From assembly GCF_014203355.1 (NCBI RefSeq), contig NZ_JACHIR010000001.1, positions 5,706,038 through 5,770,037 of the forward strand: DNA of 64,000 nt, read 5' to 3'. Positions 26,175 through 38,884 of the stretch are shown piece by piece. The stretch is from Kutzneria kofuensis (lineage in GTDB: Bacteria > Actinomycetota > Actinomycetes > Mycobacteriales > Pseudonocardiaceae). Within the stretch, counting starts at the first letter, position 1; every line of letters begins with the position of its first letter. The position numbers and the translations under genes were made by a program. A model generated the notes under the pieces. That model had not been told where the DNA came from. It searched no databases and saw only the letters and a program-made list of their open reading frames with translations.

Positions 26175-27407
26175 ATGACGGCGATGGACACCGCGAACCC
26201 GCGGGTGCTCGTGCTCGGCTCGACCGGGTCGATCGGCACCCAGGCCCTTGACGTCATCGCCGCCAACCGAGACCGCTTCCGCCTCGCCGGCATCTCCGCC
26301 GGCGGCTCCGACCCGGCCCTGCTCGCCCGCCAGGCCCTCGACCACGAGGTCGAGGCGGTGGCGCTGACCCGGGCGACGGCGGTGGAGGACCTCCAGCTCG
26401 CCCTCTACGCCGAGGCCCAGCGCCGCGGCTACAGCCAGGGCGACTTCCGGCTGCCCCGCATCCTGGCCGGCCCGGAGGCGAACGAGGAGCTGATCGACTC
26501 CACCCCGGCGGACGTGGTGCTCAACGGCCTGCCGGGCTCGCAGGGCCTGCGGCCGTCCCTCAAGGCACTGGCGACGGACGCCCGCCTGGCGCTGGCCAAC
26601 AAGGAGTCGCTGATCGCGGGCGGCCCGCTGGTGCTCAAGGCGGCCAAGCCGGGCCAGCTGGTGTCGGTGGACTCCGAGCACTCGGCGCTGGCCCAGTGCC
26701 TGCGCGGCGGCACCGAGGAGGAAGTGGCCCGCCTCGTCCTGACGGCGTCGGGCGGCCCGTTCCGCGGCAGGAAGCGAAGCGACCTGGCCGATGTGACGGT
26801 CGAGAACGCGATGGCCCACCCGACCTGGTCGATGGGCCCGCTGATCACCATCAACTCGGCCACCCTGGTCAACAAGGGCCTGGAGCTGATCGAGGCCCAC
26901 CTGCTGTTCGACGTGCCCTACGACCGCATCGACGTGGTGGTGCACCCGCAGTCCATCATTCACTCGATGGTGACGTTCGTGGACGGCTCGACGCTGGCCC
27001 AGGCCAGCCCGCCGGACATGCGGCTGCCGATCTCGCTGGCCCTGGGCTGGCCGTCCCGGATCCCGGGCGCGGCGAAGGCCTGCGACTGGTCGAAGGCGGC
27101 CAGCTGGACGTTCGAGCCGCTGGACAACGAGACGTTCCCGTCGGTGGAACTGGCCCGCTCGGCCGGTTCGGCCGGCGGCTGCCTGCCGGCGGTCTACAAC
27201 GCTTCCAACGAGGAGGCGGTCGCCGCCTTCCTGTCGGGCAACGCTGCCTTCACCTCCATCGTGGACACTGTTGACCGGGTGCTCACCGAAGCCGACCAGT
27301 GGCGCGGGGAACCCGCCGATGTGGCCGAGGTGCTGGCCGCCGAGGACTGGGCCCGCGCGCGAGCGCGCGAACTGGTCGCACGGCCGGTCGGTTCGGGAAG
27401 GGACTAA
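26175..27407 (+). CDS. dxr: 1-deoxy-D-xylulose 5-phosphate reductoisomerase
   Basis: Second step of the MEP isoprenoid pathway: DXP to 2-C-methyl-D-erythritol 4-phosphate with NADPH; target of fosmidomycin. Motifs: NADPH loop [26 protein letters not shown], metal-binding [13 protein letters not shown], and the [10 protein letters not shown] loop, [11 protein letters not shown]. Length 410 is normal. ATG at 26184 is an alternative start. It is followed by the rip protease and ispG, so two MEP enzymes flank an intramembrane protease, the actinobacterial arrangement. Confidence 0.95.
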
Positions 27408-27412
27408 CAACG

Positions 27413-28633
27413 GTGGTCAACGTCCTGGGTGTGGTGCTGTTCGCGTTGGGCATCGGGATCTCCGTCGCCCTGCACGAGTTCGGCCACCTGCTGACGGCCA
27501 AGGCCTTCGGCATGAAGGTGACCAGGTACTTCATCGGCTTCGGGCCGAAGATCTGGTCGTTCCGCCGTGGCGAGACGGAGTACGGGCTCAAGGTCATTCC
27601 GGCCGGCGGGTTCTGCGAGATCGTGGGCATGACCGCGCTGGACGAGGTCGCGCCGGAGGACGCGCCCCGCGCCTTCTACCGGCAGAAGACCTGGAAGCGG
27701 GTCATCGTGCTGTCCGCGGGCTCGATCACGCACTTCATCCTCGGCCTGCTCATCATCTACGTCGCCGCCATCTCGCTGGGCCTGCCCAACACGCAGAACC
27801 TGCCGATCGCCGGCGAGATCAGCCAGTGCGCGCAGGCCACGCAGGACCCGGTCACCGGCAAGTACAGCCCCTGCACGGCGTCCGACCCGGCTCCGGCCAA
27901 GGCGGCCGGCCTGCAGCCCGGCGACCGGATCCTGTCGGTCGCCGGCAAGCCCACGCCGACCTACAACGACATGGTGACCATCACCCGCGACGCCAAGGGC
28001 CCCACGCCCTTCGTGGTCGAGCGGGACGGCAGGCAGCTGACGCTGAGCGTGGACGTGGCCACGGTGCAGCGCATCCTGGACCCGACCAAGCCGCTGGGCC
28101 CCAACGACAAGACCGGGCCGGTGGGCGCGATCGGCATGTCGCCGTCGGCCACCATCAGCTACGGCCCGATCGCCGCGTTCGGCGCGACCGGTGTGTTCAC
28201 CGGCCAGATGTTCGGGGCCGTGTGGGACGGCCTGAAGGCGCTGCCGACGAAGATCCCGGCGCTGCTCACCGCCATCGCCGGCGGCCAGCGCGACGCGGAC
28301 GCCCCGGTCAGCGTGGTCGGCGCGAGCCTGATCGGCGGCCAGGCGGCCGACCGCGGGCTGTGGTGGTTCTTCGTGATCCTGCTCGCGAACCTGAACTTCT
28401 TCGTCGGCGTGTTCAACCTGCTGCCGCTGCTGCCGCTGGACGGCGGGCACATCGCGGTCAACCTGTACGAGCGGGTGCGTGACGCCGTGCGCAAGTGGCG
28501 GGGCAAGCCGGCGGGCGCGCCGGTCGACTACGTGAAGTTGTTGCCGCTGACGTACCTGTTGGTGTTGTTGGGTGGCGCGTACACCCTGTTGGCCATCACG
28601 GCCGACATCGTGAACCCCATCAAGCTGGGGTGA
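27413..28633 (+). CDS. Site-2 intramembrane zinc metalloprotease (RseP/Rip1 family)
   Basis: M50 protease of 406 residues that cleaves anti-sigma factors within the membrane. Catalytic HEFGH at residues 21-25 in the first transmembrane helix, a PDZ domain in the middle (AAGLQPGDRILSVAGKPTP), and the third-ligand motif NLLPLLPLDGGHI near the C-terminus, with a last membrane helix LLPLTYLLVLLGGAYTLLAI. GTG at 27413 follows GGGAAGGG and gives the family N-terminus. It lies 5 bp after dxr and is likely co-transcribed. Confidence 0.92.
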   Translation: MVNVLGVVLFALGIGISVALHEFGHLLTAKAFGMKVTRYFIGFGPKIWSFRRGETEYGLKVIPAGGFCEIVGMTALDEVAPEDAPRAFYRQKTWKRVIVLSAGSITHFILGLLIIYVAAISLGLPNTQNLPIAGEISQCAQATQDPVTGKYSPCTASDPAPAKAAGLQPGDRILSVAGKPTPTYNDMVTITRDAKGPTPFVVERDGRQLTLSVDVATVQRILDPTKPLGPNDKTGPVGAIGMSPSATISYGPIAAFGATGVFTGQMFGAVWDGLKALPTKIPALLTAIAGGQRDADAPVSVVGASLIGGQAADRGLWWFFVILLANLNFFVGVFNLLPLLPLDGGHIAVNLYERVRDAVRKWRGKPAGAPVDYVKLLPLTYLLVLLGGAYTLLAITADIVNPIKLG

Positions 28634-29989: not shown

Positions 29990-30895
29990 GTGGGTGCTCA
30001 TGCGCGCAGGTTGCCTGCGTTATCTGGCAGGCTGGGAAGCGTGTTGAGGCTTGCCGGGGCACGGGTGCTCGACGATCGCGACGTGTCGGCGGTGCGCGCC
30101 GTGCTCGACGAGGACCCGGTCGCGTCCTGCATGGTCGCCGCGCGCGTGGAGGTCGCCGGGGCGGACCCGTGGCGGCTGGGCGGCGAGCTGTGGGGCATGG
30201 AGGGCCGTCCCGCCCGCAACGGCCGGCTCACCGGCCTGTGCTTCTCCGGCCCGAATCTCATCCCGTTGTCCGGCAACCGCGCCGCGCTGCGGCACTTCGC
30301 CGACCGTGCGCTGCGCCGGCACCGGATGTGCTCCTCCCTGGTCGGCCCGGCCGACCTGGTGATGGGGCTGTGGCAGGAGTTGGAGCCGGTGTGGGGGCCG
30401 GCCCGCGAGGTGCGCCCGCACCAGCCGCTGCTGGCGATGGGCGGTTCCCCCACGGTCAAGCCAGATCCGCTGGTCCGCCCGGTGCGGCCGGACGAGCTGG
30501 ACGTCTACCTGCCGGCGGCGGTGGCCATGTTCACCGAGGAGGTCGGCGTCGACCCGCGGCTGGACGACGGCGGCGCCGGCTACCGGGCCCGGGTCGCGGA
30601 GCTGATCGCCAGCGGCCGCGCGTTCGCCCGGTTCGAGAGCGGCCAGGTCGTGTACAAGGCCGAGATCGGCGCCCTGTCGGAGAAGGTCGGGCAGATCCAG
30701 GGCGTGTGGGTACGCCCGGACCGGCGTGGCCAGGGCCTGGGCGCGAGCGGCACCGCCGCGGTCGCCGACCGGCTCGTGCGGGGGCTGGGCCGGACGGCCA
30801 GCCTCTACGTCAACGGGTTCAACGCGCCCGCGCGGGCGGCCTACCGCCGGATCGGCTTCTCGGAGGTCGGCCGGTACGCCACCGTGTTGTTCTGA
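29990..30895 (+). CDS. GNAT-family N-acetyltransferase with DUF4081 N-terminal domain
   Basis: 301 residues. The N-terminal half (LDEDPVASCMVAARVEVAGADP, GLCFSGPNLIPLSGN) matches the DUF4081 region that precedes GNAT in actinobacteria; the C-terminal half holds the acetyl-CoA loop VWVRPDRRGQGLGASGTAAV and the closing NGFNAPARAAYRRIGFSEVG. Substrate unknown; the gene is conserved downstream of ispG. The leaderless signal supports the GTG at 29990; GTG at 30041 is the alternative and gives a tighter family fit. Confidence 0.87.
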   Translation: MGAHARRLPALSGRLGSVLRLAGARVLDDRDVSAVRAVLDEDPVASCMVAARVEVAGADPWRLGGELWGMEGRPARNGRLTGLCFSGPNLIPLSGNRAALRHFADRALRRHRMCSSLVGPADLVMGLWQELEPVWGPAREVRPHQPLLAMGGSPTVKPDPLVRPVRPDELDVYLPAAVAMFTEEVGVDPRLDDGGAGYRARVAELIASGRAFARFESGQVVYKAEIGALSEKVGQIQGVWVRPDRRGQGLGASGTAAVADRLVRGLGRTASLYVNGFNAPARAAYRRIGFSEVGRYATVLF

Positions 30896-30949
30896 GTTGT
30901 TCTGAGCAGCCGTACGGCCATATCACGCGAATTTGTCGGGCCCGGTTGG

Positions 30950-30955
30950 CATACT
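30950..30955 (+). promoter_or_regulatory. -10 element CATACT of a likely leaderless PBP mRNA
   Basis: CATACT is followed by 7 nt and then the GTG at 30963; no Shine-Dalgarno sequence is present. Confidence 0.5.
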
Positions 30956-30962
30956 GCGGGCC

Positions 30963-32765
30963 GTGCCGAGAAAGCTGCCGCTGGTCGTCGCGTTCGCCCT
31001 GGTCCTGCCGCTGAGCGCGTGCGGCCTGTTCGAGTCGAAGCCGAGCCAGGACGACATCGCCAAGAACTTCCTCGCCGACTTCGCCAAGGGCGACACCGCC
31101 GCGGCGGCGCAGCTCACCGACGATGCGAACGCGTCGAAGGCGCTGATGGACAAGGTCAGGACGGCGCTCAAGCCGACCGGGGTGACGCTGACCGCGGGCG
31201 CGTCCCAGCCGCCCAGCGGCGACACGGCCACCGTGCCGTTCAACGCCAGCTGGAACCTCGGCAAGGACCGCACCTGGACCTACCAGGGCTCGCTGGCCAT
31301 GACGCAGGCCAGCGGCGACTGGCGGGTGCACTGGCAGCCCGAGGACGTGCACCCGAAGCTGTCGGCGCAGCAGTCGATCGCGCTGACCGTGCTGCAGCCG
31401 GACCCGGCCCCGGTGCTGGACCGGGACGGCGCGCCGCTGCTCGCCCCCACGCCGGTGATCAGCATCTCGCTGGACCGCAAGCAGGCCGGCGACCTGAACT
31501 CGGTGGCCACCGCGCTGGCCGCGGCGTTGAACAGGTTCGACAACACGATCACCGCACAGTCGATCATCGACGGCGCCAGCAAGACGCCGGACGGCCAGGC
31601 GTATTCGATCGTGAACCTGCGTGACGCGGACTACCAGACGGTCAAGCCGCAGATCCACGAGCTGCCCGGGGTGAGCTTCGCCACCCAGACCCAGTTGCTG
31701 GCCCAGAACAAGTCGCTCGGCCCGCAGTTCCTGTCCACGATCAAGACCGCGGTCAACACGCAGGTCGCCGGCGCGGCCGGCTGGCGGGTCGTGACCAAGG
31801 ACGCGGCCGGCAACGACGTGGCCGACCTGGCCGGCAAGGACCCGCAGCCGGCGAAGTCGCTGACCACCACGATCGGCACCGGCATCCAGGCCGCCGCGCA
31901 GGCCGCGATCGCAGGGGTGCAGCAGCCGGCGGCGATCGTCGCGATGCAGCCGTCGACCGGGGAGGTCCTGGCGGTGGCGCAGAACGCGCCGGCCGACGCG
32001 CAGGGCCTGATCGCGCTGACCGGGCAGTTCCCGCCCGGCTCCACGTTCAAGATCGTCACGGGCGTGTCGGCGCTGGAGGCCGGCAAGGTGACGCTGGACG
32101 GCCCGCTGCCGTGCCCGGGCAAGACCACCATCGACGGCCGGGTGATCCCGAACGAGAACGAGTTCGACCTCGGCACGGTGCCGCTGCGCACCGCCTTCGC
32201 GCAGTCCTGCAACACGACGTTCTCCCAGATCGCCGCCACCCAGCTGACCAGCCAGCAGCTCGCCGACACGGCCAAGCAGATGGGCATCGGGGCCGACTTC
32301 AACGTGCCGGGTGTGGTCACGGTGACCGGGTCCGTGCCGGTGCCGACGTCCACGGTCGAGCGGGCCGAGGACGGCTTCGGACAGGGCAAGGACCAGGTCA
32401 GCCCGTTCGGCATGGCGCTGGTGGCCTCGACCGTGGTCAAGGGCTCGATCCCGACGCCGACGCTGATCCGCGGCACCGAGACCAAGGTCAACACGCCGGC
32501 GCAGCAGCCGGTGCCGGGGCCGGTGCTGGACTCGATGCGGCAGATGATGCGCGCGGTGGTGACGGACGGAACCGCCAAGGCCATCAGGGACATTCCCGAT
32601 GTGGCCGGCAAGACCGGCACCGCCCAGTTCGGCGACGGCACCAACTCGCACGGTTGGTTCGTCGGCTACCGCGGCGACCTCGCGTTCGCGGTGCTGCTGG
32701 TCGGCGCGGGCAGCTCGTCCCCGGCCGTGGTGGTGGCGGGCAACTTCCTACGGGCAGTCAAGTGA
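30963..32765 (+). CDS. Penicillin-binding lipoprotein (class B-like transpeptidase)
   Basis: 600 residues. Lipoprotein signal peptide with lipobox LSAC (Cys20) after MPRKLPLVVAFALVLP; an N-terminal MecA_N-type NTF2-like domain (KNFLADFAKGDTAAAAQLTD), a dimerisation domain, and a transpeptidase domain with Ser360-xx-Lys363 (PPGSTFKIV), Ser415-Cys-Asn and KTG from Lys550. This is the architecture of the actinobacterial lipoprotein PBP located near ispG. GTG at 30963 fits both the signal peptide and the leaderless promoter. It is tail-to-tail with the STAND gene, one base apart. Confidence 0.9.
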   Translation: MPRKLPLVVAFALVLPLSACGLFESKPSQDDIAKNFLADFAKGDTAAAAQLTDDANASKALMDKVRTALKPTGVTLTAGASQPPSGDTATVPFNASWNLGKDRTWTYQGSLAMTQASGDWRVHWQPEDVHPKLSAQQSIALTVLQPDPAPVLDRDGAPLLAPTPVISISLDRKQAGDLNSVATALAAALNRFDNTITAQSIIDGASKTPDGQAYSIVNLRDADYQTVKPQIHELPGVSFATQTQLLAQNKSLGPQFLSTIKTAVNTQVAGAAGWRVVTKDAAGNDVADLAGKDPQPAKSLTTTIGTGIQAAAQAAIAGVQQPAAIVAMQPSTGEVLAVAQNAPADAQGLIALTGQFPPGSTFKIVTGVSALEAGKVTLDGPLPCPGKTTIDGRVIPNENEFDLGTVPLRTAFAQSCNTTFSQIAATQLTSQQLADTAKQMGIGADFNVPGVVTVTGSVPVPTSTVERAEDGFGQGKDQVSPFGMALVASTVVKGSIPTPTLIRGTETKVNTPAQQPVPGPVLDSMRQMMRAVVTDGTAKAIRDIPDVAGKTGTAQFGDGTNSHGWFVGYRGDLAFAVLLVGAGSSSPAVVVAGNFLRAVK

Positions 32766-32766
32766 G

Positions 32767-35613
32767 TCAGTAGATCCGCGTGGACGTGTAGAGCAGGTCG
32801 AGGTTGGTGTCGGTGAGCGTGCCGTTCGCCGCATAGCAGGCGAGGTAGACGTACGAGTCGTTCCGCGTCGTCTCGTTCATGCCCGTGAGCGCGCAGTAGT
32901 TGCCGACCCCCTCGGCGGTGACGTGCATTGTGCTGGGGGAGTAACCGTTTCCGAGCCGGGCGGTGTACTTCCCGGTTGCCGTGCGGGAGAAAGTCACCAA
33001 TCCCCACTGCCCGCCGCCGGTCACGACGTAGTCTCCGACCAGCTTTCGGTTGTCGTCCAACAGGTTCTGGCCGGAGGCGGCGCTCGCGGCGAATGCCGTG
33101 TCGGCGGCCGCGCCGGAGGTGTCGACGCAGGCGACGTCCACGGAGTCGCCGTGCCGGCCGGCGATCGAGCAGTGCCTCGGCGCAGAGCCGATGGCGGCTA
33201 GTTCGACCACACCCGTTGCGGCGCCGGCAAGCTCTGCCGTGTAGCGGCCGACGCCGGTGCGCACCACCTGGCCGGCATTGCGGCCGTGCTGCCAGTCCGG
33301 GGCGAAGGCGGTGGCGCCGGGCTGGTCGTCGACGACGTAAGAGCGCGTGCCGGGAGCGGCGATCGGGTTGGCGCCGCTGCCGGCGGCGAAGAACACCAGG
33401 AACGGCACGTCGCTCACCGCGCCGGTCCTGGTGAAGCAGCGGACGTCGACGATCTCGGCGGCACCGTCCTGACGCCACTGTTCAGGCTGGCAGTAGCTGC
33501 CGGTCGCGCCGGTGTCAAGGGCGGTGACGGTCACGGTGCCGCCCGGTGTTCCGGCCAGTGGCATGCGGATCCGCTGCCGCCCGGTGCCGAGGCGGGTGCC
33601 CGTCGGGTGTTCCGCCGACGGCGGTGACTGCATCATCCAGATACCCCAGGTCCAGTTGGCCTGGTAGTTGGGGGTGGCGGGGTCGTAGGCGGTGAGGTCG
33701 TCCGGCTGCCCGTCCGTGCGGCGGTGGTCGTCCCGGGCGAAGCCCCAGCTGAGCGTGGTCGGGGGAGGGGACTGTGGGCCCGGGCCGCCGCCGTTGCCGT
33801 TGCCGGTGGTCGGCCCGGGCCGACCACCGCTCGTGATCGGGTCGCCGATCGGCGTGGCACCGGCTGTTGTCGAAGCGCCGGTGGTCGTCGGCCCGCCGGG
33901 GAATCCCGTTGTCGGCGACGATCCGGGTGTTGTCGTGTCGACGACGACCGGCTGCCCCGGATTCGGCTCGGCCGCCGTGGTCGGCGGATGCGACGACGAC
34001 GTCAGCAAGGCCGCGACGAGCGCCGACACCAGGCTGATCGCGCCCGCCACCCGTAACACCTGCGGATGGCTGACCACGAACTGCTGCACCGGGGCCGGCA
34101 CCTTCATCGCGGCCACTTGCGCCTGCCGGAGCAGCCCCAGCAGGCCGGTCACCTGCTCGGTCGGCGCGTCGCCACGGTAGCCGACCTGGTCGGCCAGCCG
34201 GCGGATCCGGTCCGCCGCGACGTCGTCGACGGTGTCCAGCCCGTCGCTCATCAGCGCCACGACCAGCTCGAACGCCTCTTCCACCTTCCCGTCGGCGTAC
34301 TTGCGGGCGGCGATCGAGTACCGGAAGTACACCTGGTCGCGCACCGAGTCCGCGCCGAGCGCGGCCTGCAGCCCTAGCGCCAGCACCCGACCCCAGGCGC
34401 CCCAGTGCCGGGCCGACACCAGCTTCGTCGCCGCGGCCCGGGCCAGCGCCAGCGCGACATCGTGGCGGTCGGCGTCCAGATTCGCTTGCAGCGCCTGCTC
34501 GATCACCATGATCTCGGCGGCGACCTGTTGCGCGTCAACGGTTTCCGTCACCCAGGACGTGATCCGCCCGGTGACGGCCTCGACGTCGAGCCGGAGCTCC
34601 GCGGGGATCAGCCCGGCAATGCCGGCGGCCAACCGGAAACGCTCGCCCTCGGCCAGCAACGTCGTGCCCCGCAAGGTTTCCACGGTTGCTTGCGTCGGAA
34701 TCTCGGCGACCGTCGCGAGGAGCGGCCAGCCCCATTCCGTGTTCTCCAGTGCGGCAAGCGTGAGCACGGCGGCGCGGGGGTGCTCGGCCAGCCAGCCGAT
34801 CAAGCGCGGCACGATCACCTTGGTCTCATCGGGACCGAGGCCCTCCGGCAGTGTGTTCTGCTGCCTGGCCTGGGCCAGGTAGTCGCCGAGCAACGCGACC
34901 TTGCCCGGGTGCTGGCCGTAGCCGGCGCACAGCTCGGTGACCTGCTGGCGCACCGCGGCCGGCAGGCGCTGGTCGAATCGCGACCGCAGCAGCTCCCGGC
35001 TCGCCTTCACCGGAAGCCCCGCCAGCAGCACCCGGACGTCGCGGCCGCCACGAAGGTCGGACCGGTCCGTCGCGACGACGAACACGCTGCGCGGCATGGC
35101 CCCCAGCACCGCGGCCAGCTCGGCGGCCGGGCAGCGCGGATTCTCGATGATCACGAGCGCCCGGAGACCGGTCATGGCCTGCCGCAGCACGGTCGACGGG
35201 ATCGGGCGGTCCGCCGGGAAGTCGCAGCAGGCGTCCAGCACCGCGCGCAGGATCTCGTCGGCGTCGGGCAGCAGCGACGCCGTCCACACGATCGCCTGCA
35301 TGTCCGGCACCGTGAGCAGATTCCTGTGCGCGGCGTGGCGGAGCAGCGTGGTCTTGCCGATGCCGGCCGGGCCGAACAGCTGGACGTTCCGGCCTTCGGC
35401 AAGCGCCTCGGCCAGCCGGTCCAGCTCCTTCTCGCGGCCGAGACACAGCGGATTCCCCAGGTCGAGCGTGCGCGGCAGCTCGTCCTTCACCCGGATGTCG
35501 CCGACGTCGAGCGGGCGGGCGCAGGCCCGCTCCACGTGCAGGTACTCGATGCTGCCGGCCTGGATGAGCATGCCGGTGTTGTCGCCGGTGTACTCGTTCC
35601 GTGTGCCGCCCAC
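32767..35613 (-). CDS. STAND-type NTPase fused through a membrane helix to an extracellular repeat region
   Basis: About 948 residues, function unknown. Order: short N-terminal motif [20 protein letters not shown] also seen ahead of other actinobacterial STAND proteins; NTPase with Walker [11 protein letters not shown] (residues about 81-88), Walker B-like [10 protein letters not shown] and a sensor-like [10 protein letters not shown]; helical region to about 515; one transmembrane segment (about 519-538, [19 protein letters not shown]); an 80-residue Thr/Pro/Gly linker; then three related modules (about 620-948) each with a TG-Y---L strand, a YC or HC site, a V-V-CF/CV/CY strand and a closing acidic-F segment. 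GTG at 35613 follows GAGGGGG; longer starts exist to 35709. Confidence 0.78.
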
Positions 35614-35713
35614 GGCCGGCACCCCCTCACGGTCGAGTGATGCATCGCACACCGGCGTCGGCCCGTTACGTCCCGTCAACGCCGGGCCGACACCCGGCCG
35701 CGCGGGCAAGTCG

Positions 35714-35719
35714 TAGGGT
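35714..35719 (+). promoter_or_regulatory. -10 element TAGGGT of a likely leaderless map mRNA
   Basis: TAGGGT, 7 nt, then ATG at 35727. An earlier ATG at 35721 would lie too close to the element. Confidence 0.5.
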
Positions 35720-35726
35720 GATGGGC

Positions 35727-36584
35727 ATGCCCGTGCGTGCCGCTCTCAAGCCCGGTGAGTTGTCTCCCCGGCGACCCGTCCCCAACCACATCCCGCGTCC
35801 CGAGTACGTGGACAAGCCGGCGCCCGCGCGCAACACCGACCCCTGGGTGCAGCCGCCGGAGATCATCGAGGCGATGCGGGTCGCCGGCCGGATCGCCGCG
35901 CAGGCGCTCCAGGAGGGCGGCAAGGCGGTGCGGCCCGGCGTCACCACCGACCACATCGACGCCGTGGTGCACGAGTTCCTCTGCGACCACGACGCCTACC
36001 CGTCGACGCTGGGCTACCGGAACTTCCCCAAGTCCTGCTGCACCTCGCTGAACGAGGTGATCTGCCACGGCATCCCGGACTCGACGGTGATCGAGGACGG
36101 CGACATCGTCAACATCGACGTGACGGCCTTCATCGGCGGCGTGCACGGCGACTGCAACGCCACCTTCCTCGCCGGCGAGGTCAGCGAAGAGGCGCGGCTG
36201 CTGGTGGAGCGCACCCACGAGGCGACCATGCGCGCGATCAAGGCGGTGCGGCCGGGGCGGCAGCTCAACGTGGTCGGCCGGGTGATCGAGTCGTACGCCA
36301 ACCGCTTCGGCTACGGCGTCGTCCGCGACTTCACCGGGCACGGCATCGGCCGCTCCTTCCACAGCGGCCTGGTGGTGCTGCACTACGACGAGCCCAGCGT
36401 CACCACCGTGCTGGAGCCCGGCATGACCTTCACCATCGAGCCGATGATCAACCTCGGCACCATCGAGTACGACATCTGGCCCGACAACTGGACGGTCACC
36501 ACCAAGGACCGCAAGTGGACCGCCCAGTTCGAGCACACCATCGTCGTCACCGACACCGGCGCGGAGATCCTCACCCTGCCGTGA
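35727..36584 (+). CDS. map: Methionine aminopeptidase, type I
   Basis: Removes N-terminal methionine from nascent proteins. Metal ligands visible: [22 protein letters not shown] (two Asp), [13 protein letters not shown] (His), [10 protein letters not shown] (Glu) and [10 protein letters not shown] (Glu). The 285-residue form has the N-terminal linker ([18 protein letters not shown]) with an SH3-binding-like proline motif typical of mycobacterial MapB. ATG at 35727 gives exactly that length. Divergent from the STAND gene, convergent with the hydrolase gene through a hairpin. Confidence 0.94.
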
Positions 36585-36592
36585 CCGCTCGG

Positions 36593-36633
36593 AAGGGACC
36601 ATTCCTCTCGTTGGATGAGAGGAATGGTCCTTT
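36593..36633. terminator. bidirectional hairpin between map and hydrolase gene, GGACCATTCCTC family
   Basis: GGACCATTCCTCTC (36596-36609) pairs with GAGAGGAATGGTCC (36617-36630); flanking AA/TT extend the stem. The right flank supplies TTT. Shares a 12-bp core with the element at 41437-41483. Confidence 0.8.
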
Positions 36634-37310
36634 CACAACATCTCCAGCAGCTCGGTGAGTGCGGCCGCCACCGGGGCCGGGTCGGTCGCGGGGGCCAGGT
36701 GGTTGGACGCCAGCTCCCGCACCGGCCAGCCCGATTCCCGTGCGGCGGCGGCATGTTCGGCGTACGTCTCGGTCAGCAGCAGGTAGCCGCTGGGGCCGTC
36801 CCACTCGGCGGAGGGCCGCTGCTCCTTGAGGAACTCGACGGCCACCTCCGGCTCCTCCTCGGTCATCTCCGCCCGCAGGGCCTCGTCCAGCTCCGCGAAC
36901 GGGTTCGGGGTGAACCAGTCCGACCAGCGCGGCAACTGCCCCTCACGGGCCGACGCCCGCAGCGCGGCGAACCGGGCCGGCTGCAGCTGCCGGAAGCTCT
37001 GGCCCGGCGTGGGCAGCTCGGCGTCCACGTACACCAGGCCGGCGACCATCTCGTCCAGTTCGGCGGCGAACGCGGGCAGCAGCGGCCCGGCGCCGCTGTG
37101 CCCGACCAGCACGGCCGGCTCGGTCAGCTCCACCTCGTCCATGGCGTCGGCGAACGCGCCGATCAGCCGCTGGTGCACCGGCGCCGCGCTCACCGTGACC
37201 CGAAGGTCGACGAGACAGGACTCGACGCCACCCGCCGCCAGCGTGTCGGCCAGCGGCCGCAGGCTCGCCGGACCGAGATAGGGACTGTGCACGAGAACGA
37301 CGGTGGGCAT
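36633..37310 (-). CDS. Alpha/beta hydrolase
   Basis: 225-residue serine-hydrolase fold: strand-turn VVLVHSPYLGP with the oxyanion region, nucleophile elbow VLVGHSGAGPLLP (Ser), acid in a later loop, and a C-terminal histidine in ASNHLAPATDP. Substrate unknown; resembles small esterase-like proteins. ATG at 37310 is chosen since upstream residues are not conserved and would run into the divergent cobQ start. CATCAT lies 7 nt upstream of the ATG, a weak leaderless signal. Confidence 0.83.
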   Translation of the reverse strand: MPTVVLVHSPYLGPASLRPLADTLAAGGVESCLVDLRVTVSAAPVHQRLIGAFADAMDEVELTEPAVLVGHSGAGPLLPAFAAELDEMVAGLVYVDAELPTPGQSFRQLQPARFAALRASAREGQLPRWSDWFTPNPFAELDEALRAEMTEEEPEVAVEFLKEQRPSAEWDGPSGYLLLTETYAEHAAAARESGWPVRELASNHLAPATDPAPVAAALTELLEML

Positions 37311-37351
37311 GACGAGGATGATGGCAGTCCGAGGAAGCGGGGAGGGACACT

Positions 37352-38884
37352 GTGGGCGCATTGCTGGTCGCCGGCACGACATCCGATGCCGGCAAGAGCG
37401 TGCTGGCCGCCGGCATCTGCCGCTGGCTGGCGCGGCGAGGCGTGCGTGTCGCCCCGTTCAAGGCGCAGAACATGTCCAACAACTCGGCCGTGACGGTCGA
37501 GGGCGGCGAGATCGGGCGGGCGCAGGCGCTGCAGGCGGCGGCCTGCGGGCTGGAGCCGAGCGTCCGGTTCAACCCGGTGCTGCTCAAGCCCGGCGGCGAC
37601 CGCAGCTCACAGGTGGTGGTGCTCGGAAAGGCCGTCGGCGAGGTCAGCGCGATGTCCTATCGGGACCGCAAGCGTGAGCTCTCCGTGATCGCCCAAACGG
37701 CCCTTGCGGAGCTCCGATCGGAATTCGACATCGTCATCTGTGAAGGCGCAGGTTCACCCACTGAGGTCAATCTGCGGGCCACTGATATCGCGAACATGGG
37801 CCTCGCGCGGGCCGCGAACCTGCCGGTTGTCGTCGTCGGCGACATCGACCGCGGCGGCGTGTTCGCTCATCTCTTCGGCACGCTGGCGCTGCTCGAACCG
37901 GCAGACCAGGCGCTGATCGCCGGTTTTGTCGTCAACAAGTTCCGCGGCGACCCGGCGCTGCTCGAGCCGGGACTGCGCCAACTGCGCGGTGTCACCGGCC
38001 GTCCGGTGTACGGCGTGCTGCCGTGGCGTGAGGATCTGTGGCTGGACGCCGAGGACTCGCTGTCCTATGTGGCCGATGGCGTGATCGGCCGTCCGGCCCC
38101 GCCGGTGGGCGAGCAGTGGCTGCGGGTGGCGGTTGTGCGGCTGCCTCGCATCTCCAACGCCACCGATGTGGAGGCACTGGCCGGCGAACCCGGCGTCGCC
38201 GTGCGCTTCGTCACGGAGCCGTCGCGGCTGACCGACGCGGATCTGGTCGTGCTGCCCGGTTCCAAGGCCACGGTGTCCGATCTGGACTGGCTGCGCCGCA
38301 CCGGCCTGGCCGACGCGGTGCGGGCGCACGTGCGGCGCGGGCTGCCGCTGCTGGGCGTCTGCGGCGGCTTCCAGATGCTCGCCCGGACCATTTCCGACGA
38401 CGTCGAGTCGGGCGCGGGCGAGGTGCCCGGCCTGGGCCTGCTCGACACGGCCATCGGCTTCGCCGCGGACAAGACGCTGACCCGGCCGGCCGGCAAGGCG
38501 TTCGGCCACGCGGTCACCGGCTATGAGATCCACCACGGTCGCGTGCTGCGCCGCGGGCCCCGGCTGGACGGGCTGATCGAACTGTCCGATGGCGACACCG
38601 AGGGCGTGGTGGCCGGGCCGGTCATCGGCACCCACTGGCACGGCCTGCTGGAGAACGACGGCTTCCGCCGGGAGTTCCTGCGCTGGGCGGCGGCCACGGC
38701 CGGCCGTGACGGCTTCACGGCCGCCGAGGGCACGTCCTTCGCGGCCGCCCGGGCGGCCCAGCTGGACCTGCTCGGCGACCTGGTCGAGCAGCACATGGAC
38801 ACCGACGCGCTGCTCGCCCTGATCGAGCGCGGAGCCCCCGGTGGGCTTCCTGTGCTGCCGCCGGGGGCTCCGCCGCTCGACTGA
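37352..38884 (+). CDS. cobQ: Cobyric acid synthase (adenosylcobyrinate a,c-diamide amidase)
   Basis: Glutamine-dependent amidase adding four amide groups to cobyrinate diamide in cobalamin synthesis. N-terminal dethiobiotin-synthetase-like ATPase ([42 protein letters not shown]) and a C-terminal triad-type glutaminase with Cys337 ([10 protein letters not shown]) and a His near 428 (GTHWHGLLE). GTG start follows GGGAGGG. No cobalamin riboswitch is seen in its 41-bp divergent gap, in contrast to cobN. Length 510 is normal. Confidence 0.93.

Follow-up and report, generated by a model that had tools for sequence, protein, structure and literature searches.

A putative outward-facing STAND receptor of Kutzneria kofuensis with a candidate amyloid-type signalling motif

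Introduction

NLR-like proteins are regarded as internal sensors, and the sensors of STAND proteins are usually WD40 or TPR domains. A gene of Kutzneria kofuensis for a 948-aa STAND protein with a predicted membrane segment raises the question of whether such a switch can be operated from outside the cell, and by what route its signal would then reach an effector. The gene lies in a stretch of 64,000 nucleotides (contig NZ_JACHIR010000001.1, positions 5,706,038 to 5,770,037), hereafter the window. An earlier reading of these letters (the original prediction) described a membrane-spanning STAND NTPase with three related modules outside the cell, no adjacent partner gene and an effector that is cytoplasmic or absent.

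One known route is the amyloid NLR signalosome, in which BASS motifs are combined with Bell-domain effectors (Dyrka et al. 2020, via PMC7889193 and PMC8086366). In the excerpts of these two papers, the N-terminal motif of an NLR is paired with a C-terminal motif in a small, helical Bell protein, the two being encoded by adjacent or overlapping genes (PMC7889193, PMC8086366).

Domain organization of the 948-aa STAND protein

The frame starts with the GTG at 35613 and its stop reaches 32767 on the minus strand; GAGGGGG lies 8 bases 5' of the GTG. From the N- to the C-terminus, the protein consists of a short motif, the NTPase, a helical region, a hydrophobic segment, a linker and three modules (Table 1). 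Its stop codon and that of the penicillin-binding-protein-like (pbp) neighbour are one base apart, tail to tail (window 32740-32790).

Table 1 Features of the locus, with positions in the window.
Feature	Position	Strand	Basis or remark
948-aa membrane-spanning STAND NTPase gene (predicted)	32767..35613	-	ORF, GTG start; full-length orthologs L010, L011, L012
Conserved 5' region (promoter or leader), palindrome GATGCATC inside	35614..35690	-	aligned in 4 carriers
Short motif at the N-terminus, residues 5-27, similar to amyloid signalling motifs associated with NLRs	35533..35601	-	own-genome profile search; profile-profile match
STAND NTPase and helical region, residues 45-515	34069..35481	-	AAA_16 / nSTAND6; plant NLR NB-ARC chains; nine-member alignment
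Walker A GPAGIGKT, residues 81-88	35350-35373	-	sequence
Predicted transmembrane helix, residues 519-537	34003..34059	-	hydropathy 2.25; helix in low-confidence model
Ser/Thr/Pro/Gly linker, residues 538-619	33757..34002	-	composition
Ectodomain module 1, residues 667-748 (matched part)	33370..33615	-	70.9 bits, iE 2.8e-24
Ectodomain module 2, residues 782-851 (matched part)	33061..33270	-	42.7 bits, iE 1.7e-15
Ectodomain module 3, residues 872-945 (matched part)	32779..33000	-	38.3 bits, iE 4e-14
pbp-like gene (penicillin-binding protein; name by eye), convergent left neighbour	30933..32765	+	context, outside system
map-like gene (methionine aminopeptidase; name by eye), divergent right neighbour	35727..36584	+	start by eye; context, outside system

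The stretch directly 5' of the GTG aligns across the four carriers of the gene, while two empty sites align poorly there. Since it is strongly conserved as DNA in carriers and poorly matched by empty sites, it is probably a 5' part of the gene. A protein-coding reading of this leader was rejected on the same DNA-level conservation. A start codon upstream of the GTG may exist. Rfam gave no match in 30000-37500 of the window.

The P-loop conforms to the Walker A pattern GxxGxGK[ST], and Gly81, Pro82, Gly84, Gly86 and Lys87 are invariant in all nine aligned proteins. The Walker B position reads LVIIE; Glu157 pairs with Asp or Glu in relatives and is followed by Asn here and by Asp in one ortholog. 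At the G-x-P position, the protein has GQHP, an ortholog SHHP and relatives GNP or GSP, so that the Pro is invariant (9/9) and the exact spacing differs in the 948-aa STAND. With the whole protein, the Pfam families AAA_16 and nSTAND6 both stayed below cut-off (nSTAND6, 26.4 bits against 27.7), and nSTAND6 rose above it, to 28.2 bits, when the NTPase segment was searched alone. A profile of nine relatives matched plant NLR NB-ARC chains in the PDB over profile positions 13-249 (E 2.6e-8); these matches run well past the P-loop and stand among many that cover the P-loop only. The STAND assignment made originally is supported. Among PADLOC models, only mad8 was matched (E 0.0016, 44 residues around the P-loop), with no defence-system match, and no DNA-binding, sigma or outside enzymatic domain was matched in the protein. 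The protein shares with STAND/AP-ATPases (NB-ARC) and nSTAND proteins the Walker A motif, an acidic Walker B position and a helical region past the NTPase, along with a later G/H-x-P whose exact spacing is not kept. It differs from them by its predicted transmembrane helix and probably extracellular variable domain, and its whole-protein Pfam matches are below cut-off.

Residues 519-537 form the sole strong hydrophobic window (Kyte-Doolittle 2.25, next best 1.53), in agreement with the single membrane pass predicted before. The first 80 residues past it are 74% Ser/Thr/Pro/Gly. AlphaFold2 placed a helix at 517-538 with low confidence; the models of the ectodomain (mean pLDDT 41.7) and of the cytoplasmic part (mean pLDDT 45.3) were built from only three sequences each and are too weak to use. 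In a set of 13 proteins, the positive-inside rule favoured the C-outside topology in seven, was neutral in four and opposed it in two, so that charge speaks only weakly for this orientation. The number of Cys residues after the membrane segment is even in all 13, which also favours the C-outside topology; six of the 13 share this ectodomain and are not independent.

Triplicated modules of the predicted ectodomain

A module profile was built solely from non-Kutzneria sequences, namely 24 segments of 10 proteins from other actinobacteria. It matched the 948-aa STAND at three separate places (Table 1), against a best score of 7.9 bits among 500 shuffled ectodomains. The modules are therefore related to one another, as had been proposed. 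Pairwise alignment of the modules against shuffles gave z values of 4.3-7.4 within the 948-aa STAND and down to 1.3 in an ortholog. Each module contains two Cys residues, all invariant in the four orthologs (own copy counted); the original prediction had named a conserved Cys and a V-V-C strand in each module, and disulfides may form within the modules. Pfam found no match on the ectodomain in the five proteins scanned. A match to a surface-layer protein in the PDB was set aside as chance level (E 0.11).

N-terminal motif and candidate effectors

Residues 5-27 resemble the N-termini of other STANDs in the genus, a feature absent from the original prediction. The motif profile was made from ten sequences, four being the own motif and its orthologs, which inflates the significance of the matches to the proteins L068 and L059 described below. 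On the own genome, it matched 18 places at E up to 10, and several of the weaker ones look like chance frames. Apart from the 948-aa STAND itself, the motif precedes a P-loop NTPase in seven (L058, L060, L062, L063, L064, L069 and L071), following another domain in L060 and standing in a frame that soon ends in L062. The small membrane protein L067 has it close to the C-terminus. L061 (G000:C1:913694-913738) carries the motif at its N-terminus; its 227 residues also hold one membrane segment and a C-terminal domain that matches DUF3558 below cut-off, and it lacks an NTPase.

In L068 (G000:C1:5872689-5873081), a helical protein of 131 residues encoded about 131 kb from the 948-aa STAND gene, the motif lies at the extreme C-terminus. 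We call this protein Bell-like by analogy; Pfam, NCBIfam and PADLOC gave no convincing match on it. Since its match in the motif search reached only E 0.377 on its own, the case for L068 rests on position and orthologs. The protein is present in six of the seven genus genomes, own counted. With the receptor profile, the C-termini of three of these six scored 10.6-16.2 bits, where 1800 shuffles reached at most 5.5; the other three, at 1.4-5.2 bits, fell inside the shuffle range. In hhalign, the motif profile and the Bell-like C-termini, as hand-cut segments, matched with a probability of 96.9. In comparisons that likewise used hand-chosen segments, 1 of 1000 shuffles was as good as the own N-terminus against L068, and 2 of 1000 against L059. 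Judged by eye, the receptor and Bell-like motifs show no co-variation among the four carriers. Both empty-site genomes have the Bell-like gene too, which is thus not tied to the 948-aa STAND. L059 (G000:C3:150305-150370), with 66 residues from its first Met and seemingly two signalling-type motifs, is a possible adaptor candidate.

Four neighbours of the gene (pbp, map, GNAT and hydrolase) showed only background similarity to its N-terminal motif. The idea of an adjacent partner was rejected on this measure, in line with the earlier statement that none is adjacent. The other half of that statement, an effector cytoplasmic or absent, needs revision: the effector is better sought in trans, reached through the N-terminal motif.

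We favour, with moderate confidence, the reading that the 948-aa STAND is a single-pass N-in/C-out receptor that senses the outside and would signal through its N-terminal motif to effectors encoded elsewhere. The architecture and the homologies are seen in the sequence; we infer ligand binding, the direction of the signal, amyloid formation and the identity of the effector. In the resulting scheme, the ectodomain would bind a ligand at the wall or outside it. For envelope damage and phage adsorption, the triggers suggested originally, no evidence in either direction was found. Binding of the ligand would relieve the autoinhibition of the STAND, and the NTPase would form ATP-bound oligomers under the membrane. 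With the N-terminal motifs thereby clustered, a cross-beta seed could arise, which would recruit and activate an effector carrying the same kind of motif. L068 is the best candidate for this effector and would presumably act by damaging the membrane, and L059 may serve as an adaptor.

Membrane-STAND relatives and exchange of their ectodomains

The cytoplasmic part was searched as a profile over 100 family genomes, with the own gene and the G002 ortholog set aside. All seven matches at E <= 1.0e-18 have a membrane segment with a further C-terminal stretch behind it; only one of them (L090, from another genus) carries the same ectodomain, and the others carry different ones. Four weaker matches are NB-ARC-type proteins, none with a membrane segment. 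Folded-looking, Cys-containing ectodomains are thus swapped between relatives while the cytoplasmic part stays constant. By eye, the swapped ectodomains are CBM-like, Ig/ASH-like or DUF3558-like, with no Pfam match above cut-off. In L109 (G336:C1:1773000-1779000), which has the same ectodomain in another genus, the frame is broken around the P-loop, by either a sequencing error or a pseudogene.

A broader profile found matches in 49 of 296 class genomes. Loci were listed for the best matches only; of the 29 non-own ones among them, each of the top 28 (E 4.3e-29 or better) has a hydrophobic window that lies 300 or more residues past the P-loop, and the weakest lacks one. In the own genome, the broader profile had a second match, at G000:C1:5680787. 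The C-terminus is visible in 10 of these 28: eight end in a Ser/Pro/Gly/acidic-rich tail only, and two have a Cys-containing domain. The putative membrane-STAND core is therefore widespread, and a folded domain outside is one option among several. The loci L120-L145, mostly from genus g23, which we take to be Streptomyces-like, encode a conserved membrane STAND whose N-terminal segment resembles LLTVNPVDGSEIE and whose tail, where seen, looks disordered.

The tail-only relatives make the folded ectodomain look dispensable in the wider class and so lend weight to an alternative that we consider unlikely, a membrane-anchored STAND whose helical region senses a cytoplasmic trigger and whose modules do no more than anchor it in the wall or act as spacers there. 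The exchange of folded-looking, Cys-containing ectodomains on an unchanged cytoplasmic part speaks against it, as does the identity of the ectodomain in orthologs (62-64%), about as high as that of the NTPase region (59-69%).

Module relatives in other proteins

The ectodomain profile was searched over 246 class genomes and matched in 14, own included, giving 14 distinct non-own module proteins. Seven of these (L041 and L043-L048) have a signal-like segment followed by modules only, three (L050, L051 and L053) an N-terminal anchor, and two (L042 and L054) are metalloprotease-like by eye, their N-terminal side being cut in the stretch examined. L052 has a single module, and the architecture of L049 was left out of these classes. 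Signal and membrane segments were judged by hydropathy and by eye, with no dedicated predictor. The suggestion that the modules might occur in secreted actinobacterial proteins was thus borne out for secreted-looking ones.

In a plasmid collection, two records matched the ectodomain, from Embleya sp. NBC_00888 and Nonomuraea. The Embleya protein (L038:4015-6948) joins the same three-module ectodomain (39% identity) to sigma-70 region 2, with a hydrophobic segment between the two. In Nonomuraea, the ectodomain belongs to a protein that looks metalloprotease-like, with Pfam matches that stay under the cut-off. One ectodomain, without a Pfam match in the five proteins scanned, is thus common to secreted-looking proteins, a sigma factor and a STAND. 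Elsewhere, the modules thus stand after signal-like segments, on metalloprotease-like proteins or, behind a membrane segment, on a sigma factor, so that the triplicated modules of the 948-aa STAND are very probably extracytoplasmic, where the original prediction had put them; a cytoplasmic C-terminal region is not indicated by the sequence.

In excerpts of PMC5826349 and PMC8999054, ECF52 sigma factors combine a proline-rich region with an outside domain for carbohydrate binding, set behind a membrane region, and the Embleya fusion may be seen as an ECF52-like layout with another outside domain. The 948-aa STAND resembles ECF52 (SCO4117), as described in the same excerpts (PMC5826349, PMC8999054), in its cytoplasmic output, membrane region, proline-rich linker and putative outside binding domain. 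It differs in that its output is a STAND NTPase with a motif instead of a sigma factor, and in that no zinc finger was matched.

The Embleya fusion brings in a rather improbable alternative, regulated proteolysis, in which outside binding would lead to cleavage in or near the membrane helix by a site-2 protease and the freed NTPase would act, for example, on transcription. Such a model is proposed for ECF52 in the excerpts (PMC5826349, PMC8999054), and an RseP-like gene (name by eye) lies in the window at 27299-28633. It adjoins an ispG-like gene, however, so its proximity means little. An RseP-like gene beside an ispG-like gene is an ordinary actinobacterial arrangement. The 948-aa STAND, in addition, has no match to a DNA-binding or sigma domain. 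That the extracellular modules are themselves the working part, an adhesin or binding domain assembled or positioned by the NTPase, would fit their presence on secreted-looking and metalloprotease-like proteins; with no outside enzymatic domain matched and the motif and STAND core left unexplained, we regard this as highly improbable.

History of the gene

Orthologs occur in four of the seven genomes filed in the genus (own, G001, G002 and G003), each between pbp and map; the three full-length ones besides the own copy are 65, 63 and 57% identical to it, and two belong to Kutzneria buriramensis DSM 45791 and Kutzneria sp. 744. About 60-70 bases separate the pbp match from the map match in G004 and G006, with no match to the 948-aa STAND gene. 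The membership of G005 in the genus is doubtful because this genome is small and its best map match is only 33% identical. By this distribution, the 948-aa STAND gene is accessory. Since G004 and G006 lack it at the pbp-map junction, the pbp-like neighbour is unlikely to be its functional partner. A tree of pbp from six genomes has a low-support branch, and no order of gain and loss was drawn from it.

Compared with the own copy, dN/dS of the 948-aa STAND gene is 0.54 (G003), 0.60 (G002) and 0.73 (G001), against 0.17 (G003) and 0.29 (G001) for pbp, calculated without G002, and 0.26, 0.10 and 0.10 for map. By these estimates, the gene evolves faster than its neighbours. Since dS is also higher in it (0.46-0.48, against 0.15-0.25 in the neighbours), allele exchange or a different codon constraint could add to the difference in rate. 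In the 25-27 codons of the motif, dN exceeded dS in all three comparisons, which hold too few codons to test. These dN/dS values and the weak positive-inside signal could also be taken to mean that the gene is decaying or that the hydrophobic segment does not cross the membrane, the receptor being an illusion of annotation, which is scarcely credible given the open frame in all four orthologs (own counted), the overall dN/dS below 1 and the extracytoplasmic look of the module relatives.

Comparison with known signalling systems

The outward-facing receptor that we favour agrees with the amyloid NLR signalosomes in having a short motif at the N-terminus of a STAND/NLR in a filamentous actinobacterium, whose genome also encodes a small helical protein with a C-terminal motif of similar kind. 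It differs in that the candidate effector is not adjacent and in that the 948-aa STAND is predicted to span the membrane and to have an outside domain.

System 4 and EACC2, as described in excerpts of PMC7159879 and PMC8195603, also combine a constant signalling module with variable C-terminal domains, some of them extracellular behind transmembrane helices, and both occur in multicellular bacteria. Their constant component contains a caspase (PMC7159879, PMC8195603), whereas the motif and the STAND are constant here. In the literature searched, with most subscription papers and the original BASS paper outside its scope, no membrane-spanning NLR with an exchangeable outside sensor was found.

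More tentatively, we propose that actinomycetes may have a whole class of such proteins, with a constant motif-STAND core under the membrane, one helix, exchangeable outside sensors and homotypic, amyloid-type templating that passes outside signals inward to separate effectors. Such a class would be the bacterial counterpart of a surface pattern receptor and an inflammasome in one. If true, with a clade that has an interchangeable extracytoplasmic sensor and a constant intracellular switch, the principle by which innate immune receptors work would reach the surface of bacteria. Among the bacterial relatives of animal and plant immune receptors, some may thus watch the cell exterior.

Neighbours of related membrane STANDs

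The flanks of related membrane STANDs were examined at seven loci. No motif-sharing neighbour was seen in G261 and G309, G336 was covered by its gene list only, and the match of the G279 neighbour is weak (129 of 1000 shuffles). The upstream neighbour has the motif of the receptor in G002 and G006 (0 of 1000 shuffles each) and in G301 (3 of 1000). Two membrane-STAND neighbours (L112:5737-6570 and L111:5549-6379) combine an N-terminal motif with a conserved DRGDG-containing domain; these proteins, from G301 and G279, are cyclase-like by eye, with no Pfam match above cut-off. In G002 (L113:1505-6264), a caspase-WD40 gene, a small motif protein and a membrane STAND stand in a row, which makes a complete-looking candidate signalling locus.
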